Shown here piece after piece: positions 9,675 to 63,961 of a stretch of DNA of 64,000 bases (positions within the stretch are counted from its first letter, which is position 1; the number at the start of each line of letters is the position of its first letter). The notes beneath the pieces were generated by a model that was not told where the DNA came from, did no database searches, and saw nothing but the letters and a program-made list of their open reading frames with translations. The position numbers and the translations under genes are program-made. Origin of the DNA: Actinophytocola gossypii (GTDB lineage: Bacteria > Actinomycetota > Actinomycetes > Mycobacteriales > Pseudonocardiaceae); the NCBI RefSeq assembly GCF_025165815.1, contig NZ_JAFFZE010000009.1, positions 62,001 to 126,000 on the forward strand, given 5' to 3'.

Positions 9675-10391
9675 ATGATTCGGACAAGCCGGGCGGTCGG
9701 TACGCTCCTTCGCCGCGCCGGCGCGCTGGCCGGCGTGCTCCTCGTCGCGGGTGGTTTGGTCGCGTGCACCGAGGAGGCGGCACCGGAGCCGCCGACCAAC
9801 TCCGCGCCGGTGATCGTGCCCGGCGGACCGGGGGAGGAGGCCTCCACGATCGCGCCGGGCGAGGGCACGGCGGTCGAGGAGGAGCCGCCGAACGAGGCCG
9901 ACGTCGAGTTCGTCCAGGACATGATCGTGCACCACACCCAGGCCGTCGCGATGGCCGAGCTCGCCCCGGACCGGGCGGCCGCGGCGGACGTCCGGGGCAT
10001 CGCCGCCCGGATCGCGGACAGCCAGGGCCCCGAGATCGACATGATGAACCGCTGGCTGGAGCGCTACGACAAGCCGACCGTCGACACCGACGCCCCGGAC
10101 GGGGGCCACGGGGGCCACGGGGGCCACGGGGGCCACGGCGCGATGGCCGACCACGCCGACATGCCCGGCATGGCCACCGACGAGCAGCTGGCGACCCTGG
10201 AGGCCGCGAGCGGCGACACCTTCGACACGCTGTTCCTGCAGCTCATGATCCGCCACCACGAGGGCGGGCTGACCATGGTCGAGGAGGTCCGCAGGACCGG
10301 CGTGAACGTCCGCGTGCAGGAGATCGCCGACGACGTCGCCGTCACGCAGACCGACGAGATCAACCGGATGCGCGGCATGCTGGTCGCCTGA
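9675..10391 (+). CDS. DUF305 lipoprotein with His-rich segment
   Basis: A 238-residue protein. A signal peptide with lipobox GLVAC (Cys31) predicts anchoring to the outside of the cell membrane. Two DUF305 ferritin-like helical units follow: VEFVQDMIVHHTQAVAMAEL near residue 85 and FLQLMIRHHEGGLTMVEE near residue 195, each with the paired HH metal-ligand motif. A four-fold Gly-Gly-His repeat followed by other His and Met residues lies between them, and this suggests copper or another soft metal. The function is not established for the family. ATG 9675 is preferred over TTG 9657. Control is probably shared with the divergent LVIVD gene. Confidence 0.88.
   Translation: MIRTSRAVGTLLRRAGALAGVLLVAGGLVACTEEAAPEPPTNSAPVIVPGGPGEEASTIAPGEGTAVEEEPPNEADVEFVQDMIVHHTQAVAMAELAPDRAAAADVRGIAARIADSQGPEIDMMNRWLERYDKPTVDTDAPDGGHGGHGGHGGHGAMADHADMPGMATDEQLATLEAASGDTFDTLFLQLMIRHHEGGLTMVEEVRRTGVNVRVQEIADDVAVTQTDEINRMRGMLVA
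10101..10136 (+). repeat. perfect 9-bp tandem repeat, four copies
   Basis: GGGGGCCAC is repeated four times without change, coding for (Gly-Gly-His)4 in the DUF305 lipoprotein. The absence of synonymous changes shows recent slippage expansion, and copy number may vary between strains. Confidence 0.9.
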
Positions 10392-10469
10392 AAACCCGCA
10401 CGCCAGGCCCCGGAGCGGCTCGATAGCATCGTCACCTACCGATTGTCGAGCCCTTCCCGAGGAGCACCC

Positions 10470-12494
10470 GTGTCCGAGCCACGCCCGCCAGCCGCCGAAC
10501 CCACCCCGCACGTGGTGGTGCCGGCCGGCACCACGGCGGGCGCCGCGATCCGGGACGCCGGCCTGCCCGGCAAGGGCCCGGACGCGGTCGGGGTAGTCCG
10601 TGACGTCGACGGCCGGCTCCGCGACCTCGCCTGGACCCCTGCCGCCGACGCCCAGGTCGAGCCGGTCGCCGCGAACAGCGACGACGGCCGCGCGGTCATC
10701 CGGCACTCCGCCGCGCACGTGCTTGCCCAGGCCGTGCAGCAGCAGTTCCCGGAGGCCAAGCTCGGCATCGGTCCGCCGGTCCGCGACGGCTTCTACTACG
10801 ACTTCGACGTCGCCCGCCCGTTCACCCCCGAGGACCTGGCCGCCCTCGAGAAGCGGATGAAGCAGATCGTCAAGTCCTCCCAGCGGTTCTCCCGCCGCGT
10901 CCTCGACTCGGTCGACGCGGCGAGGACCGAGCTCAAGGACGAGCCGTTCAAGCTGGAACTGGTCGACCTGAAGTCCGACGTCGACACCGACGAGGTGATG
11001 GAGGTCGGGGGCGGCGAGCTGACCGTCTACGACAACCTCGACCCGCGCTCCGGCGAGCAGGTCTGGGGCGACCTGTGCCGCGGCCCGCACGTGCCGACCA
11101 CCAAGCACATCCCGGCGTTCAAGCTCATGCGCGTCGCCGCCGCGTACTGGCGGGGGAGCGAGCAGAACCCGCAGCTGCAGCGGATCTACGGCACCGCGTG
11201 GGAGTCCCAGGAGGCGCAGGACGCCTACCTGGAGCGGCTCGCCGAGGCCGAGCGGCGCGACCACCGCAAGCTCGGCGCCGAGCTGGACCTGTTCTCCTTC
11301 CCCGAGGAACTGGGCTCCGGCCTGCCGGTGTTCCACCCCAAGGGCGGCATCGTCCGGCGCGAGATGGAGAAGTACTCGCGCCAGCGGCACGAGGAGTCCG
11401 GCTACGAGTTCGTGAACACCCCGCACATCAGCAAGGCCGGCCTGTTCCACACCTCGGGCCACCTGCCGTACTACGCCGAGACCATGTTCCCGCCGCTGTC
11501 CTTCGAGGGCGAGGACTACTACCTCAAGGCCATGAACTGCCCGATGCACCACCTGATCTTCCGGTCGCGCGGGCGGTCCTACCGGGAGCTGCCGCTGCGG
11601 CTGTTCGAGTTCGGCGCGGTGTACCGGTACGAGAAGTCCGGCGTGGTGCACGGCCTGACCAGGGCCCGCGGGTTCACCATGGACGACTCGCACATCTACT
11701 GCACCCCCGAGCAGACCCCCGCCGAGCTGCGGTCGCTGCTGCGGTTCGTGCTGGACCTGCTGGCCGACTACGGCCTGTCCGACTTCTACCTCGAACTGTC
11801 GACCCGCGGTGACGGCGACAAGTTCATCGGCTCGGACGAGGAGTGGGCCGAGGCCACCGAGACCCTGCGGCAGGCGGCCCTCGACTCGGGCCTCGAGCTG
11901 GTGCCGGACCCGGGTGGCGCCGCGTACTACGGGCCGAAGATCTCGGTGCAGGCCAAGGACGCGATCGGCCGTTCCTGGCAGATGTCGACCATCCAGGTGG
12001 ACTTCAACCACCCGAAGCGGTTCGAACTCGCCTACACCGCCGCCGACGGGTCGCGCAAGCAGCCGGTGGTGCTGCACCGCGCGCTGTTCGGCTCGATCGA
12101 GCGGTTCTTCGGCGTGCTGACCGAGCACTACGCGGGCGCGTTCCCGGCCTGGCTCGCGCCGGTGCAGGTGGTGGGCATCCCGATCGCCGACGAGCACGCC
12201 GACCACCTCCAGCAGGTGGCCAAGGCGCTGCGGGCGCGGGGCATCCGGGTCGAGGTCGACACCTCCGACGACCGGATGCAGAAGAAGATCCGCAACCACA
12301 CCACCCAGAAGGTGCCGTTCCTGCTGCTCGCGGGCGGCAAGGACGTCGAGGCGGGCGCGGTGTCGTTCCGGTTCCGCGACGGCACCCAGGTCAACGGGGT
12401 CCCGGTGGACCGGGCCGTCGACGTGGTCGCCGACTGGGTCGAGCGCAGGGAGAACGCTTCGCCGACGGCGGAGAGCGTCCGGGTCGACGCCTAG
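10470..12494 (+). CDS. thrS: threonyl-tRNA synthetase
   Basis: A 674-residue class II aminoacyl-tRNA synthetase charging tRNA-Thr. In order: N-terminal TGS domain ([15 protein letters not shown]), the editing or second additional domain containing [13 protein letters not shown], class II core with motif 2 ([32 protein letters not shown]), motif 3 ([21 protein letters not shown]) and a C-terminal anticodon-binding domain. GTG 10470 has GAGGAG upstream; a TTG at 10443 is in frame but less likely. It heads the conserved thrS-HIT-pgsA-pimA neighbourhood. No T-box leader is visible upstream. Confidence 0.97.
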
Positions 12495-57587: not shown

Positions 57588-57661
57588 CCGGAAGCCCAGT
57601 CCGGCGGCCGGGGGCCGGACGCACCGGCCCCCGGACCGTCGCCCACATCGGAGGTGTCACC

Positions 57662-58369
57662 GTGTCCACGTCGAGTCCCCCACGCGACGGCGAGGAGTTC
57701 GTCGCCGCGTTGCGCGGCCTGTCGCACCGCTACTGGGGAACCCACCCGTTCCACCACCGGATGCACGCCGGCGAGCTGTCGGAGCACGAGCTGCGGGTGT
57801 GGGCCGCGAACCGGTGGTACTACCAGTGCGTCCTGCCGCAGAAGGACGCCGCGATCATCAGCAACTGCCCGGTGCCGGAGGTGCGTCGCGGCTGGCTCGA
57901 CCGGATCGTCTACCACGACGGCGCCGCCGACCGTGACCACGCCAGCGGCCGCGAACGGTGGCTGCGGCTGTGCGAGGCGGTCGGCCTAGACCGGACCGAG
58001 GTGCTCGACGAGCGCCACGTGGTGCCGGGCGTCCGGTTCGCCGTCGACGCCTACGTGACGTTCGCCAGGACCAGGCCGTGGATCGAGGCGGTCGCCTCCG
58101 GTCTCACCGAGATGTTCTCCGGGCACCTGATGCGCCGCCGGGTCGGGGACATGCTCGCCAACTACGAGTGGATCCGCCGCGAGGACCTCGCGTACTTCAC
58201 CAACCGGATCGAGGCGGTCGCCGGCGAGGGAAAGTCCACACTGGACATCGTGGTGCGCTACTGCGTCACCCGCGAGCAGCAGGACAGGGCGATCGACGCG
58301 CTGTCGTTCAAGTGCGACGTGCTGTGGTCGATGCTGGACGCCATCGAGCGCGCGGCCGCGAAGGAGTGA
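57662..58369 (+). CDS. pqqC: pyrroloquinoline-quinone synthase PqqC
   Basis: A 235-residue helical oxidase performing the last ring closure and eight-electron oxidation of PQQ synthesis. The family core is intact: RYWGTHPFHHRMHAGELSEHELRVWAANRWYYQCVLPQKDAAIISNCP, then YHDGAADRDHASGRERWLRL and YEWIRREDLAYFTNRI. GTG 57662 has GGAGGTG five bases upstream. Confidence 0.96.
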   Translation: MSTSSPPRDGEEFVAALRGLSHRYWGTHPFHHRMHAGELSEHELRVWAANRWYYQCVLPQKDAAIISNCPVPEVRRGWLDRIVYHDGAADRDHASGRERWLRLCEAVGLDRTEVLDERHVVPGVRFAVDAYVTFARTRPWIEAVASGLTEMFSGHLMRRRVGDMLANYEWIRREDLAYFTNRIEAVAGEGKSTLDIVVRYCVTREQQDRAIDALSFKCDVLWSMLDAIERAAAKE

Positions 58370-58372
58370 GCG

Positions 58373-58627
58373 ATGGTCAAGCCCCGTCTGCGCACCGGAG
58401 TCCGGCTGACCTTCGACCGGGTCAGGGACACGCATGTGCTGCTGTTCCCCGAGGGCGTGCTGGTGCCCAACGCCACCGCCGCCGCCGTACTGGAGCTCTG
58501 TGACGGCTCGAACGAGGTCGGTGAGATCGCCGACCGCCTCGGTGCGCGGTTCCGCGGGGTGCGGGTCGAGGACGTCGCCGGCGTGCTCGCCCGGTTCGAG
58601 GACAGGAGGGTCGTGGAGTGGACGTGA
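58373..58627 (+). CDS. pqqD: PQQ peptide chaperone PqqD
   Basis: An 84-residue RiPP-recognition element that binds PqqA and presents it to PqqE. It has LTFDRVRDTHVLLFPEGVLVPNATAAAVLELCDGSNEVGEI, the PqqD winged-helix pattern. It begins three bases after the pqqC stop and overlaps pqqE by 10 nt, so the partners are made together. Confidence 0.94.
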   Translation: MVKPRLRTGVRLTFDRVRDTHVLLFPEGVLVPNATAAAVLELCDGSNEVGEIADRLGARFRGVRVEDVAGVLARFEDRRVVEWT

Positions 58628-59724
58628 CCGTCGAACCGCCGCTCGGCATGCTGGCCGAGCTGACGCACCGGTGCCCGCTGCACTGCCCCTACTGCTCCAA
58701 CCCGGTCGAGCTCGCCGCCAAACGGGACGAGCTGACCACCGCCCAGTGGCTCGAGGTGATCGAGGCCGCCCGTGACCTCGGCGTGCTGCAGGTGCACCTG
58801 TCCGGCGGCGAGCCGCTGCTGCGCCCCGACCTGCCGGAGCTGGTCGCCCGCGCTTCGGAGCTCGGCTGCTACGTCAACCTGGTGACCAGCGGCCTCGGGC
58901 TCACCGAGTCCCGCCTGGCCGACCTGGCCGAGCGCGGCCTCGCCCACGTGCAGCTGTCGGTCCAGGGCGCCGACGCGGCCCGCGCCGACCGGATCGCCGG
59001 CGCGAAGGCCCACGCCCGCAAGGTCGACACCGCCGCCGTGGTGCGTGCCGTCGGGCTGCCGCTGAGCGTCAACGTCGTCCTGCACCGGGCCAACCACGAC
59101 CAGGTCGAGGAGCTCATCGACCTGGCCGAGCGGATGGGCGCCGACCGCCTCGAGCTCGCGAACACCCAGTACTACGGCTGGGCGCTGCGCAACCGCACCG
59201 CGCTGATGCCCACACCCGAGCAACTCGCCGCCGCCGAACCGGTCGTGCGGGCGGCGATCGAGCGGCTGCGCGGACGGATGGAGATCGTCTACGTGGTCGC
59301 GGACTACTACGAGCGGTACCCGAAGCCGTGCATGTACGGCTGGGGCGCGCGCCAGCTGACCGTGGCACCCAACGGCGACGTGCTCCCGTGCCCCGCGGCG
59401 TCGGTGATCACCACGCTCGACGTCGAGAACGTGAAACGCAGGCCGCTCGGGGAGATCTGGTACGAGTCCGCGTCCTTCAACGCCTTCCGCGGCGAGGACT
59501 GGATGCGGGACCCGTGCCGTACCTGCGACCGCCGCGCGCTCGACTTCGGCGGCTGCCGCTGCCAGGCGTTCATGCTGACCGGCGACGCCTCGGCGACCGA
59601 CCCGGTGTGCTCGCGCTCGCCGGACCGCTCGGTGGTGGACGGCATCCTGGCCGGCGAGGCCGAGACCGTGGCGTCGGCGGGCGTGCCGGACTTCGTGATG
59701 CGCGCGCCGACGGTGACGCGGTGA
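58618..59724 (+). CDS. pqqE: PqqA glutamate-tyrosine crosslinking radical SAM enzyme PqqE
   Basis: A 368-residue radical SAM/SPASM enzyme linking the Glu and Tyr side chains of PqqA. The SAM cluster motif is HRCPLHCPYCSNP with Cys19, Cys23 and Cys26. HLSGGEPLLRPDL follows. The C-terminal auxiliary cluster cysteines are in CMYGWG, VLPCPAAS, CRTCDRRALDFGGCRCQ and PVCSRSP. GTG 58618 overlaps the pqqD end and has AGGAGGG upstream. Its stop overlaps pqqB (GTGA). Confidence 0.96.
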   Translation: MDVTVEPPLGMLAELTHRCPLHCPYCSNPVELAAKRDELTTAQWLEVIEAARDLGVLQVHLSGGEPLLRPDLPELVARASELGCYVNLVTSGLGLTESRLADLAERGLAHVQLSVQGADAARADRIAGAKAHARKVDTAAVVRAVGLPLSVNVVLHRANHDQVEELIDLAERMGADRLELANTQYYGWALRNRTALMPTPEQLAAAEPVVRAAIERLRGRMEIVYVVADYYERYPKPCMYGWGARQLTVAPNGDVLPCPAASVITTLDVENVKRRPLGEIWYESASFNAFRGEDWMRDPCRTCDRRALDFGGCRCQAFMLTGDASATDPVCSRSPDRSVVDGILAGEAETVASAGVPDFVMRAPTVTR

Positions 59725-60611
59725 AGGTCCGCCTGCTCGGCACCGGGGCCGGTGGCGGCTTCCCGCAGTGGAACTGCGCCTGCCCGCTGTGCTCGGCGTG
59801 TCGCGCCGGCTCGCCCGACGTCCCGGCCCGCACCCAGGACTGCCTCGCGATCAGCTCCGACGGCCGGGACTGGTACCTGTTGAACGCCTCACCCGACATC
59901 CGCGCCCAGGTGATCGCCGAACCGGCGCTCGCCCCGGGGCCGGGCCCACGGGACACCCCGGTACGCGGCGTGCTGCTCACCGACGCCGAGCTGGACCACG
60001 CCCTCGGCCTGATGCTCCTGCGGGAAGGTGGCGGCCTGTCCGTGTGGGCGCCGCCGGCGGTCCTGCACGCCCTGGCCGACGGGTTCCCGATCCGCGCCGC
60101 CGTCGCCCGCTACGGCGAGTGGCACTGGCGCCCGGCGGGCGAACCGGTGGCCGGGCTCGACGTCACCACCCTCGCGGTGAGCGACAAGCGCCCCAAGTAC
60201 GCCAGGGAGTCCACGGCCGACGGCCCGTGGGTCGTGGCGTACCGGATCTCGGACCCGGCGACCGGCGGGAGCCTGGTGTACGCCCCCTGCCTGGCGACCT
60301 GGCCACCCGGCTTCGACGAGTTCGTCGCCGGGGCGAGCTGCGTGCTGCTGGACGGCACCTTCCACTCCGCGCGCGAGATGACCGGCACCGGCACGAGCAC
60401 CGCCGCCCAGCACGCCATGGGACACGTGCCGATCGACGGCCAGGACGGCAGCCTCGCCCGGATCCGCTCCGCCGCGGGCTCGGGCACCCGGTGGATGTAC
60501 ACGCACCTGAACAACACCAACCCGGTACTGGACCGCCGTTCGCCCGAGTACCGCGCGGTGACCGAGGCGGGCGTGGAGGTGCCGATCGACGGAACTTGCC
60601 TGGAGCTGTGA
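59721..60611 (+). CDS. pqqB: PQQ biosynthesis hydroxylase PqqB
   Basis: A 296-residue metallo-hydrolase-fold protein. It starts [24 protein letters not shown], the PqqB signature with a structural Cys site, and has [30 protein letters not shown] and [11 protein letters not shown] in order. In other bacteria PqqB hydroxylates the PqqE product. Here it is the last pqq gene, coupled to pqqE by a 4-nt overlap rather than following pqqA. Confidence 0.96.
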
Positions 60612-60669
60612 CGCGTTCCGGCCGCCGGCCGGGCATGCTGGGGGCCTGGTCGCCGGACGAGGAGATGGA

Positions 60670-61245
60670 ATGGAACAGGTGGTCCTGCTCGACGAGCGAG
60701 GGCTCGGCATCGGCACCGCGGACAAGGCCACGGTGCATCACCGGGACACCCCGCTGCACCTGGCGTTCTCGTGCTACGTGTTCAACGGGTCCGGCGAGCT
60801 GCTGGTGACCCGCCGCGCGCGGTCGAAGAAGACCTGGCCCGGGGTGGTGACCAACTCCTGCTGCGGGCACCCGGCGCCGGGGGAGCCGTTCACCGGCGCG
60901 GTGGTCCGCAGGCTGCGCGACGAGCTGGGGCTGCCCGCGCCCGAGGTCGACCTGGTGCTGCCCCGGTTCCGCTACCGCGCCGAGATGGCCAACGGCGTGG
61001 TCGAGAACGAGCTCTGCCCGGTGTTCCGCACGGTGAGCGACGCCCGGCCGCGGCTCGCCCCGGACGAGGTGGACGAGTACGGCTGGGTGTCCTGGCCGCT
61101 GTTCGTGAGCCTGGTGACCGGCGGCGAGCTCGCCGTGTCGCCGTGGTGTCGAGAGCAGGTCGACCAGCTGGCCGTGCTGGGCGACGACCCGCTCGCCTGG
61201 CCGGTCGCCGACGCGGCCGAGCTGCCTCCGGCCGCGACACACTGA
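60670..61245 (+). CDS. idi: isopentenyl-diphosphate delta-isomerase, type I
   Basis: A 191-residue Nudix-fold isomerase interconverting IPP and DMAPP. Catalytic Cys lies in [10 protein letters not shown] and catalytic Glu in [10 protein letters not shown]; the Mg-binding HLAFSCYVF and PGVVTNSC regions are present. ATG 60670 is 58 bases after pqqB on the same strand with no terminator seen, so it may share the PQQ transcript. No isoprenoid gene is adjacent. Confidence 0.95.
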
Positions 61246-61258
61246 GTCTTCTGTAGCT

Positions 61259-61286
61259 TTGACTTATATAACTGTTGGTTGATAAT
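61259..61286 (+). promoter_or_regulatory. sigma-70-like promoter upstream of SRPBCC gene
   Basis: TTGACT (61259-61264) and GATAAT (61281-61286) with a 16-base spacer closely fit -35/-10 consensus. The surrounding 35 bases are unusually AT-rich for this genome. Confidence 0.6.
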
Positions 61287-61327
61287 TTGGCGCTCTCATC
61301 CCGCAGGGACGACCAGAGGAGAGCTCC

Positions 61328-61978
61328 ATGATCGACGCGACACACCAGATCAACTCCGTGCGCCGAGAGGTCGGCTCGCGGGTGCTCGACGCGGGCGAGG
61401 CGCGCGTCGTCACCATCAGCCAGACCTACGACACGGACCAGAACGACCTGTGGGACGCGGTGACCAGCGCGGAGCGGCTCCCGCGCTGGTTCCTCCCGGT
61501 GTCCGGCGAACTCCGGGTGGGCGGCCGTTACCAGCTGGAAGGCAACGCCGGCGGCACCGTGGAGCGTTGCGATCCGCCCAAGAGCTTCTTCGCCACCTGG
61601 GAGTACGGCGGCGAGGTCAGCTGGATCGACGTCCGCGTCCTGCCCGAGGCGGACGGCCGGGCCCGGCTGGAGTTGGACCACATCTCCCACGTCGACGACG
61701 ACCGGTGGGCCGAGTTCGGGCCGGGAGCGGTCGGCGTCGGCTGGGACGGCGCCCTGCTCGGCCTCGCCCTGCACGTCAGCGGCGGCCCCGCCATCGACCC
61801 GGACGAGGTCATGGCGTGGCAGACCTCCGAAGCGAACCACGAGTTCATGAGGTCGAGCAACGAGTGCTGGTACGAGGCCAACGTGGCGGCCGGCGCGGAC
61901 CCGGTGGCCGCTCGCGAGGCGGCCGACCGCACCATCGCGGCCTTCACCGCACCCCCGGAGCCCCCGCCCGGGTCCTGA
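61328..61978 (+). CDS. SRPBCC (AHSA1-like) domain protein
   Basis: A 216-residue helix-grip protein. The START/AHSA1 pattern is clear: ISQTYDTDQNDLWDAVTSAERLPRWFLPVSGELRVGGRYQLEGNAGG, and FFATWEYGGEVSWIDVRV. Such proteins bind hydrophobic ligands; several are paired with ArsR regulators, but none lies next to it here. ATG 61328 has GAGGAGAG upstream, and the strong promoter just before it suggests appreciable expression. Confidence 0.87.
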   Translation: MIDATHQINSVRREVGSRVLDAGEARVVTISQTYDTDQNDLWDAVTSAERLPRWFLPVSGELRVGGRYQLEGNAGGTVERCDPPKSFFATWEYGGEVSWIDVRVLPEADGRARLELDHISHVDDDRWAEFGPGAVGVGWDGALLGLALHVSGGPAIDPDEVMAWQTSEANHEFMRSSNECWYEANVAAGADPVAAREAADRTIAAFTAPPEPPPGS

Positions 61979-62011
61979 TCCTCGGTCCGGGCGACCTTGA
62001 TTGACACCGCA

Positions 62012-62027
62012 TCGAACGTGTGTTCGA
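62012..62027. promoter_or_regulatory. perfect LexA (SOS) box
   Basis: TCGAAC-GTGT-GTTCGA is an exact match to the actinobacterial LexA operator TCGAAC-N4-GTTCGA. It lies nine bases before the GTG start of the radical SAM gene. TTGACA at 62001-62006 and TCGACT at 62024-62029 (17-base spacer) would place the box over the promoter and the transcription start at the start codon. Confidence 0.85.
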
Positions 62028-62035
62028 CTGTGTTC

Positions 62036-63961
62036 GTGCGATGGGAAAGCCAGCGGGTAGACCAGCAACGACAGCAGACCCTGCCCGGGCTGCCGGGTCT
62101 CGTGCGCAGTGTGGAGACCCCGGAGTTCGCCGGCATGGTCTTCCACGAGGTGCACGCGAGATCGGTGCTGAACAAGGTTCCCGGGCAGTCGCCGATGCCC
62201 TTCCGGTGGACGATCAACCCCTACCGGGGCTGCGGTCACGCCTGCCGGTACTGCCTCGCCGGCGACACGCCGATCCTGCTGGCCGACGGACGCACGCGGC
62301 CGCTCGCCGACCTCTCGGTAGGCGACGAGATCTACGGCACCGAGCGGCAGGGCAGCCGCCGCCGGTACGTCACCACTCGAGTGCTCGCGCACTGGTCCAC
62401 CGTCAAGCCCGCCTACCGGCTCACCCTCCGCGACGGCACCCGGCTGATCGCCAGCGGCGACCACCGGTTCCTCACCGACCGCGGCTGGCGACACGTCGCG
62501 GCGAGTGCCGAACGACGACGGCGCGCGGTGCTCGCCACCGGGGACAAACTCGTTGGCACCGGCGGGTTCGCCTCGGCGCCGAAGGGCAGGGTGGAGTACC
62601 GGTGCGGGTACCTGGCCGGCATCGCGGCCGCGTTCGCGGAGCCGACCGACCAGCGGGTGCTCGGCCGGGCTCGGGAGTACCTGACCGGACCGGAGTCCAT
62701 CAGCCTGCCGGTCGAACGGCCGCTCGTGCCGAGCGAGGAGTGGCACAAGGGATACCTGGCCGGCGTGTTCGACGTGGACGGTGAGTTCGCCCGAGGTCAC
62801 CTCCAGGTGGCCAGGACGAACCGCGCGAACGTCAGCGGGATCTGCGACGCGTTGCTGCGGTTGGACTTCCGGTTCGCGCTGGAGGACCTGGGGCACCGCA
62901 GCGGCGTGCAGCGGATCCGGCTGTCCGGCGGGCTCGCCGAGCACCTGCGGTTCCTGCACACGGTCGACCCGGCGCGCACCGGCCAGGGTGAACTGTCGGG
63001 CGTCGCCGTCCGGGGCGCCGAGCGACTGGGCGTCGAGACCGTGGAGCCCCTCGGGTTGGAGCTGCCGCTGTTCGACATCACCACCGGCACCGGCGACTTC
63101 ATCGCGAACGGGGTGGTGAGCCACAACTGCTTCGCCAGGAACTCGCACACCTACCTCGACCTGGACTCCGGCGAGGACTTCGACAACCAGGTCGTGGTCA
63201 AGGTGAACGCGGTCGAGGTGCTGACGGCGCAGCTCCGTTCCCCGCGCTGGACCCGCGAGCACGTGGCGATGGGCACCAACACCGACCCGTACCAACGGGC
63301 GGAGGGCCGGTACCGCCTGATGCCGGGCATCATCCGCGCGTTGGCCGACAGCGGCACCCCGTTCAACATCCTCACCAAGGGCACCGTGCTCTCCCGTGAC
63401 CTTCCGCTGCTGCGGGAGGTGAGCGCCGACGTCCCGGTCGGGCTCGGCGTCTCGATCGCGCTGATCGACCGGGAACTCCAGCGCAGCCTCGAACCGGGCA
63501 CGGCGAGCCCGCAGGCCCGCCTGGAGCTGGTCCGCAAGATCGTCGACGCCGGCCTGCCGTGCGGTGTGTTCGTCGCGCCAGTGCTTCCCGGTCTCACCGA
63601 CTCGATCGACCAACTCGACGCACTGCTGGCGGCGATCGCCGACACCGGGGCGACGGGAGTGACCGTGCTGCCCCTGCACCTGCGTCCCGGGGCGAGGGAG
63701 TGGTTCGCGGCGTGGCTGGTTCGCGAGCACCCGGAACTGGTGCCGAGCTACCGCCAGATCTACGCCAGAGGCGCCAACGCGGACGTCCGGTACCGCCGCT
63801 GGCTGGGGCGGCGCGTCGGCCCCCTGTTACGGCGGTACGACCTGGCCCCCAAGGAAGCCCGACCGGCGCGAGCGGAGGACCCGACCTGGCCGGAGGGCAG
63901 CCTCGCCTCGATTCCCGAGCAGGCCGCCCCGGTCCGACAGGAGCAGCTGGAACTCCTCTGA
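62036..63961 (+). CDS. Rv2578c-family radical SAM protein containing an intein
   Basis: A 641-residue precursor of which 349 residues form the mature protein after splicing. The N-extein (1-72) has NPYRGCGHACRY with Cys66 and Cys70. The C-extein starts at Cys365 (CFARNSHTYLDLDSGEDFDNQVVVKVN), completing the CxxxCxxC cluster, followed by GTNTDPYQRAEGRYRLM and a TIM-barrel-like SAM domain. The family, known from M. tuberculosis Rv2578c, has no defined reaction; it resembles spore photoproduct lyase-type DNA repair proteins. GTG 62036 fits the family start and lies just behind a LexA box, supporting a DNA-damage role. TTG 61997 would start before the box and is rejected. Confidence 0.93.
   Translation: MRWESQRVDQQRQQTLPGLPGLVRSVETPEFAGMVFHEVHARSVLNKVPGQSPMPFRWTINPYRGCGHACRYCLAGDTPILLADGRTRPLADLSVGDEIYGTERQGSRRRYVTTRVLAHWSTVKPAYRLTLRDGTRLIASGDHRFLTDRGWRHVAASAERRRRAVLATGDKLVGTGGFASAPKGRVEYRCGYLAGIAAAFAEPTDQRVLGRAREYLTGPESISLPVERPLVPSEEWHKGYLAGVFDVDGEFARGHLQVARTNRANVSGICDALLRLDFRFALEDLGHRSGVQRIRLSGGLAEHLRFLHTVDPARTGQGELSGVAVRGAERLGVETVEPLGLELPLFDITTGTGDFIANGVVSHNCFARNSHTYLDLDSGEDFDNQVVVKVNAVEVLTAQLRSPRWTREHVAMGTNTDPYQRAEGRYRLMPGIIRALADSGTPFNILTKGTVLSRDLPLLREVSADVPVGLGVSIALIDRELQRSLEPGTASPQARLELVRKIVDAGLPCGVFVAPVLPGLTDSIDQLDALLAAIADTGATGVTVLPLHLRPGAREWFAAWLVREHPELVPSYRQIYARGANADVRYRRWLGRRVGPLLRRYDLAPKEARPARAEDPTWPEGSLASIPEQAAPVRQEQLELL
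62252..63127 (+). mobile_element. intein within the radical SAM iron-sulfur motif
   Basis: A 292-residue intein (precursor residues 73-364). Block A starts with Cys1 (CLAGDTPILLADG), block B holds LIASGDHRFLTDRGW with the conserved His, and the C-terminal blocks read PLFDITTGTGDFIANGVVSHN before Cys+1. It is inserted directly before the third cluster cysteine. The central part resembles a LAGLIDADG endonuclease: GYLAGVFDVDGEF keeps its acidic residue but the first motif (GYLAGIAAAFAEP) has lost it, so homing activity is probably gone while splicing residues are intact. Confidence 0.92.

Follow-up and report, generated by a model that had tools for sequence, protein, structure and literature searches.

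The window analyzed here, a 64,000-nucleotide stretch of the 7.4-Mb genome of Actinophytocola gossypii (family Pseudonocardiaceae), encodes a radical S-adenosylmethionine (SAM) protein of the Rv2578c family whose iron-sulfur cysteine motif, CxxxCxxC, is split by an intein of 292 residues. We consider it probable that this is a homing intein that invaded the codons of the CxxxCxxC motif and was then inherited vertically while its endonuclease decayed, and that a redox trap on splicing came with the insertion site as a by-product, without regulatory selection. Whether native inteins are regulators or mere parasites is a debated question, and the single codon boundary described here offers a natural series of empty, intact, half-dead, and endonuclease-free alleles in actinobacteria.

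The host gene is a single uninterrupted frame that encodes a precursor of 654 amino acids when counted from a TTG codon. The true start is likely the GTG at position 62036 (residue 14) because the match to the model NF038136 ("intein-containing Rv2578c family radical SAM protein") starts at that residue. This match covers residues 14 to 616 with 852.8 bits (cut-off, 700), and the model of the intein-less family, NF038135, gives 512.7 bits (cut-off, 430). Family membership is thus indicated by curated cut-offs that are exceeded and by the presence of the cluster motif, which is reconstituted from C79, C83, and C378, with RY/CFAR across the joint, once the insert is removed. The intein-bearing Rv2578c family has already been named in NF038136; the window copy departs from it in no defining trait, and its endonuclease keeps one acid. 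We found no function for Rv2578c-family enzymes, and according to one article their likeness to SplB is weak (PMC12924846). The features of the locus, all on the forward strand, are as follows.

61997..63961, +: Rv2578c-family radical-SAM precursor frame (open frame; NF038136 match)
62036..62251, +: N-extein, ending in NPYRGCGHACRY (translation; NF038135 match)
62231..62233, +: Cys(-7), ligand 1 of CxxxCxxC (translation)
62243..62245, +: Cys(-3), ligand 2 of CxxxCxxC and candidate disulfide partner of Cys1 (translation; 106/106 intein-bearing loci)
62252..63127, +: intein, 292 amino acids, Cys1 to Asn292 (translation; profile matches)
62252..62476, +: N-terminal splicing region, with Cys1 at 62252-62254 and block B His71 at 62462-62464 (TIGR01445, residues 86-160, 29.2 bits)
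62567..63022, +: LAGLIDADG endonuclease region, intein residues 106-257, approximate bounds (alignment; ratio of nonsynonymous to synonymous substitution rates [dN/dS])
62612..62638, +: LAGLIDADG motif 1, LAGIAAAFA, catalytic acid lost (alignment)
62756..62782, +: LAGLIDADG motif 2, LAGVFDVDG, catalytic acid kept (alignment)
63071..63130, +: C-terminal splicing region, with block F Asp275, His291-Asn292, and Cys+1 (TIGR01443, residues 359-378, 16.3 bits)
63128..63130, +: Cys+1, third CxxxCxxC ligand in the spliced enzyme (translation)
63128..63961, +: C-extein, rest of the radical-SAM barrel (NF038135 and PF04055 matches)

The intein runs from Cys86 (nucleotide 62252) to Asn377 (ending at nucleotide 63127) of the precursor. 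Its junctions read NPYRGC(-7)GHAC(-3)RY/C1LAGDTPILL on the N-terminal side and DFIANGVVSHN/C(+1)FARNSHTYL on the C-terminal side, so that the insert lies between the second and third cysteines of CxxxCxxC and Cys+1 is the third ligand. Both splicing-region profiles pass their cut-offs (intein_Nterm, TIGR01445, 29.2 against 24.5 bits; intein_Cterm, TIGR01443, 16.3 against 15.6 bits); the Pfam Intein_splicing model, at 22.9 bits, falls under its cut-off of 35.8. The nearest PDB chains found by phmmer are DnaB inteins (4o1r, E of 5e-6; 6bs8, E of 1e-4). The residues that characterize class 1 inteins are all present, namely Cys1, His71, Asp275, His291, Asn292, and Cys+1. The Thr of the block B TxxH motif is absent, with Ser at residue 68; one review rates this Thr as highly conserved, but we do not treat it as class-1-defining. 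By these features the insert is a class-1-type Cys1/Asn/Cys+1 intein, and its splicing is predicted from the conserved catalytic residues.

An active LAGLIDADG endonuclease has two motifs, each with a catalytic acid. In the window intein, the first motif (GYLAGIAAAFA) has Phe in place of this acid and the second (GYLAGVFDVDG) retains it, so that by its motifs the endonuclease appears half-dead. An earlier note, made from the letters of the window, had described the endonuclease as half-degenerate, had placed the intein at the same coordinates to the base, between the second and third cluster cysteines of an Rv2578c-type enzyme, with cysteine as both splice-site nucleophiles and Cys+1 as the third ligand, and had stated that the intein-bearing family was already annotated in actinobacteria. 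The translation, the endonuclease motifs, and the NF038136 match bear out these observations.

The insert was compared with its relatives using the labels f for a family group, g for a genus group, G for a genome, and L for a locus. A search with NF038135 gave matches in 257 of 297 genomes of the window's family (238 over the cut-off) and in 177 of 394 genomes of the class (158 over the cut-off); loci were taken mostly from the best-scoring matches listed, and weak or broken genes are therefore under-sampled. Both junctions could be parsed in 186 loci, 106 of them occupied (87 in the window's family and 19 in seven other families) and 80 empty. Left out were L055 (incomplete), L131, L140, L169, L217, and L226 (motif pattern unmatched), and copies broken by elements or frameshifts that lacked both junctions. 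The comparison of insertion sites, which the earlier note had proposed, places the insert at the same codon boundary in all 106 occupied loci, while the 80 empty relatives have none there, and its position is therefore not a matter of chance. Cys1, Tyr(-1), Cys(-3), and Cys(-7) are invariant in all 106, as is HN/C at the C-terminal junction. The earlier note had named a lack of intein blocks as grounds for rejecting the intein; Cys1, His71, Asp275, His291, and Asn292 occur without variation throughout the set.

The inteins range in size from 143 to 519 residues. By endonuclease state, 18 of the 106 keep both catalytic acids, 26 (the window intein included) keep one, 24 keep none, and 38 are mini-inteins from which the domain is absent. 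The second motif of L142, misread by the pattern, is FDAAG by eye, and its class of "none" stays. In f39, where g118 also has empty alleles as judged by match length, none of the five inteins has lost either acid, and g2 and g37 each have one allele with an intact endonuclease and one empty allele. Among the fetched loci, empty alleles occur inside intein-bearing genera (6 of 18 in g27, 3 of 11 in g16, and 3 of 13 in g5). Besides its mini-intein copy (L143), the g28 genome G027 carries another Rv2578c-family copy whose length is that of an intein-less gene (C1:6775583-6776527, 431.4 bits). In L183, L184, L185, and L186, the host gene is apparently frameshifted or truncated, with or without an intein, where assembly errors are possible; some species may thus be able to do without the Rv2578c-family enzyme. 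The largest intein, of 519 amino acids (L190, in g5), has a long low-complexity stretch rich in Ala, Gly, Ser, and Thr between its endonuclease motifs.

In the extein tree, built from 154 rows (15 of the 23 rows of g71 in f21 were left out), the occupied and empty states change at least 22 times, with nine changes forced by starred branches. When the states were shuffled, the mean was 49.8 changes, and none of 500 shuffles was as low as the observed 22. On the same tree, the mini-intein state requires seven changes, four of them forced. The intein tree (106 rows and 140 columns) is poorly resolved; on it the genus label changes 27 times, which equals the minimum of 27, and g27 and g16 are not single clades (four and two changes, respectively). 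Intein and extein distances are correlated (Mantel r of 0.36, with 0 of 999 permutations as high). In some pairs from different families, intein identity exceeds extein identity, by up to 77% versus 55%, and because the inteins of these pairs are more alike than their exteins, they point to transfer. The history of the intein would thus be one of arrival by homing and transfer, followed mainly by vertical descent with decay.

Selection was assessed by a simple Nei-Gojobori count of dN/dS, in which the pairs are not independent. In the window's genus (5 species, 10 pairs), the median rose from 0.148 in the exteins to 0.233 in the splicing part and 0.289 in the endonuclease part, which also had the highest value in g45 (0.406) and g22 (0.511). 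In the mini-inteins of g42 (e.g., L026 and L011), the median for the splicing domain was 0.555 versus 0.197 for the exteins.

We propose that a homing intein entered the Rv2578c-family gene at its most conserved stretch, the CxxxCxxC codons, and that in the window's genus, to judge from sequences and trees, it has been passed on vertically with a decaying endonuclease. Translation would yield an inactive precursor of about 641 residues with an interrupted radical-SAM barrel. The intein would then excise itself by an N-S acyl shift at Cys1, transthioesterification to Cys+1, and Asn cyclization, after which Cys+1 would serve as the third cluster ligand. The homing cycle, together with how hard it is to delete an insert precisely from a catalytic site, would explain the persistence of the intein better than regulatory selection. 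Inteins in general favor conserved sites and are hard to lose there (PMC2814812). The series of 18, 26, 24, and 38 endonuclease states likewise reads as an ordinary homing cycle for which a control role is not needed.

The same insertion site carries a prediction about redox sensitivity. With the insertion between the second and third ligands, the second becomes Cys(-3), which a single thiol exchange separates from Cys1, and oxidation would trap the precursor through a Cys(-3)-Cys1 disulfide and delay activation; such trapping is expected from this adjacency, as in the MoaA intein of P. abyssi. MoaA is a radical-SAM enzyme, and its intein in P. abyssi is probably inserted before the third cysteine of the motif. 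That intein shares with the window intein a Cys1, a Cys at -3, and an oxygen-labile host enzyme, and the layout (Cys83 and Cys86 in the window precursor) recurs in 106/106 relatives. It differs in being archaeal, in its host family, and in that its disulfide has been shown by experiment, whereas that of the window intein is predicted. In P. abyssi, the natural Cys(-3)-Cys1 disulfide blocks the first splicing step until it is reduced (PMC3922620, PMC10663303). A redox-sensitive first splicing step is, by this analogy, a plausible and fair prediction for the window intein, which brings a MoaA-type thiol layout into a bacterial iron-sulfur enzyme and makes the regulator question testable. A disulfide internal to the intein was rejected as an alternative: in the four other species of the genus, Cys118 is lost in one and Cys198 in three, and 32 of the 106 inteins have no Cys beyond Cys1. 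The literature search, which covered titles and the beginnings of abstracts in a library with few subscription papers, found no paper on the Rv2578c-family intein.

Several observations weigh against the homing-cycle account. Splicing of the window intein is itself predicted. Conservation of Cys(-3) is dictated by the CxxxCxxC motif of the host and is therefore uninformative on selection, giving no evidence of selection for a switch. The block B Thr is present in none of the 106 inteins (Ser in 86, Gly in 20); one review credits this residue with straining the first bond, and its absence might slow the first step and so ease trapping. The endonuclease part in the window's genus appears relaxed yet constrained, not simply dead. 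In g45, both acids are kept in 6 of 6 inteins, and no empty allele was found among the fetched loci, which fits poorly with the idea that an intact endonuclease marks an intein that is still spreading. All members of g28 (8) and of g42 (13) that were fetched carry mini-inteins, which a regulatory benefit would also explain.

The last of these observations, and the easier trapping that a missing block B Thr could bring, would suit an intein retained by host selection as a regulator, whose splicing ties the making of an oxygen-sensitive enzyme to reducing conditions and a suitable iron or metal status. Precedents exist in the redox trap of the MoaA intein, in the reversible inhibition of a mycobacterial DnaB intein by zinc (PMC7360933), and in the trapping of DnaBi1 by H2O2 (PMC6195587). 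DnaBi1 of Mycobacterium smegmatis resembles the window intein as an actinobacterial intein in an active-site loop with thiol chemistry, and metal inhibition is known for it; it differs in its class 3 mechanism, its intein-internal disulfide (Cys48-Cys118), and its host protein (PMC6195587, PMC7360933). We nevertheless regard a retained regulator as unlikely. Empty alleles are frequent, also within the intein-carrying genera g27, g16, and g5, and G027 has its extra copy of intein-less length. The splicing domain of the g42 mini-inteins evolves fast, and retention at a catalytic site is expected regardless of benefit (PMC2814812). The host gene is apparently broken by frameshifts or elements in several relatives, and the prophage Samy of Streptomyces ambofaciens ATCC 23877 inactivates an Rv2578c-family gene, from which its authors infer no significant effect on fitness (PMC12924846). 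Apparent decay of the host gene and its invasion by a phage speak against the switch being essential, and the earlier note's suggestion that the intein was kept as a control device was not borne out: the four endonuclease states, the 22 or more changes between occupied and empty, and the mostly genus-wise inheritance fit the homing cycle.

The earlier note had also held that the enzyme cannot hold its cluster without splicing. This does not follow, because Cys1 completes the CxxxCxxC motif before splicing in all 106 precursors; the precursor should be inactive owing to its interrupted barrel, not to a missing ligand. The same observation leaves room for a gate in which Cys(-7), Cys(-3), and Cys1, with Cys+1 nearby, bind a metal or an iron-sulfur cluster and block the acyl shift until loss or transfer of the metal frees splicing, and the binding of zinc to the mycobacterial DnaB intein, with inhibition, is in keeping with it (PMC7360933). 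We think such a gate improbable: the barrel that would hold the cluster is interrupted, and the idea is pure inference, as the AlphaFold2 models of the precursor and of the intein with short flanks (mean predicted local distance difference test scores of 47.4 and 46.8, from three aligned sequences each) are too poor for geometry. The models were also dropped as a source of thiol distances; a Foldseek search with the low-confidence precursor model ranked intein-endonucleases, mini-inteins, and I-DmoI first among PDB entries, which is weak support for the assignment. We are equally doubtful of a cluster-gated switch, in which the precursor would hold a metal or a [4Fe-4S] cluster that delays splicing until the metal state suits, and splicing would then exchange the mimic Cys1 for the real ligand Cys+1. 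That the insertion is dead and lies in a pseudogene, as the apparently broken copies in some relatives might suggest, is very hard to credit, given that the window frame is open, that the catalytic Cys, His, Asp, His-Asn, and Cys are retained, that the family cut-offs are exceeded, and that dN/dS is well below 1 in the exteins and the splicing part.

In some relatives, the intein site is also occupied by other mobile DNA. In three genomes, an element sits exactly at the joint between the intein and the C-extein: G126, which is Kutzneria buriramensis of g20 (about 14 kb; L173, 3.1 to 17.0 kb), G109, a second g20 genome (about 22 kb), and G132, an Actinophytocola metagenome-assembled genome of the window's genus, in which the element lies in pieces on two contigs. 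The corresponding features are as follows.

L173, L174/L175, L177/L178 (in relatives): joint elements, two from Kutzneria (g20) genomes and one from the window's genus
63104..63151 (window, no strand): predicted, unoccupied attachment site, 24 bp on each side of the intein/C-extein joint (inference from comparison of joint DNA)

In G126, a serine recombinase begins right at the joint; relatives of it occur at the joint in G109 (80% identity, with one stop) and in G132 (60 to 78%, in three pieces). The attachment site implied by these joints has a left half in the intein and a right half in the extein, so that the intein seems to make the site. A 23-base pattern over the left joint was found in 3 of 390 genomes of the family, which are the same three genomes, while a reversed control pattern was found in 2. 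Joint elements occur in three intein-bearing and no empty alleles, numbers too small for a test. Relatives of the G126 integrase at an E value of 1e-60 or less are present in 8 of 297 genomes, of which only 3 have them at the intein joint; in G205 (64%) and Solihabitans fulvus (73%) they lie in other genes, with targets judged by eye. Between the two g20 elements, similarity at the threshold used is confined to three stretches, one of about 1.6 kb at the integrase end (78%), one of about 1 kb (79%), and one of 87 bases; the elements therefore look like separate arrivals. Natural split inteins in Kutzneria and others were ruled out, as the N-terminal half contains the full intein, followed by a serine integrase. 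The joint elements did not prove to be catalogued phages, the best phage records being merely 26 to 31% identical, and a relative of them was not confirmed among viral contigs. No paper describing an intein joint as an attachment site was found among the same titles and abstract beginnings, in a library with few subscription papers. If intein joints do act as attachment sites, one parasite builds the landing site for another.

Elements enter the gene elsewhere as well. In G016 (L176, about 2.2 to 17.6 kb), an intein-less copy is cut at the HAC codons of CxxxCxxC by an element that carries a different serine recombinase of 578 amino acids, and in G389 (L225, 1.6 to 11.6 kb), the gene is cut near the GTNTDPYQ codons, with a serine recombinase of 493 amino acids at one end (10130 to 11611, reverse strand). 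Like the joint elements, Samy is mobile DNA that enters an Rv2578c-family gene with a serine integrase; it differs in its site (PMC12924846), the joint elements lying at the intein joint. The 12-bp repeat of Samy had no exact copy in 24 loci (23 from g71 of f21, presumed to be Streptomyces, and one other), a weak negative since the attachment sites vary, and an attachment site overlapping CxxxCxxC is unsupported by it. Several kinds of mobile DNA thus use the Rv2578c-family gene as an insertion target.

In G063 (L181 and L182), an N-terminal piece ending in the motif lies next to a complete second copy of the gene, and a C-terminal piece is found close to where another contig begins. Apart from the intein-bearing gene, the genome of the window has one match (L002, 1213 to 2160, reverse strand), a protein with a pretoxin HINT domain (PF07591) and not an intein at a radical-SAM site. 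Directly upstream of the intein-bearing gene and on the same strand (window positions 57635 to 61978) are pqqC, pqqD, pqqE, pqqB, a gene for isopentenyl-diphosphate isomerase, and an AHSA1-like gene.

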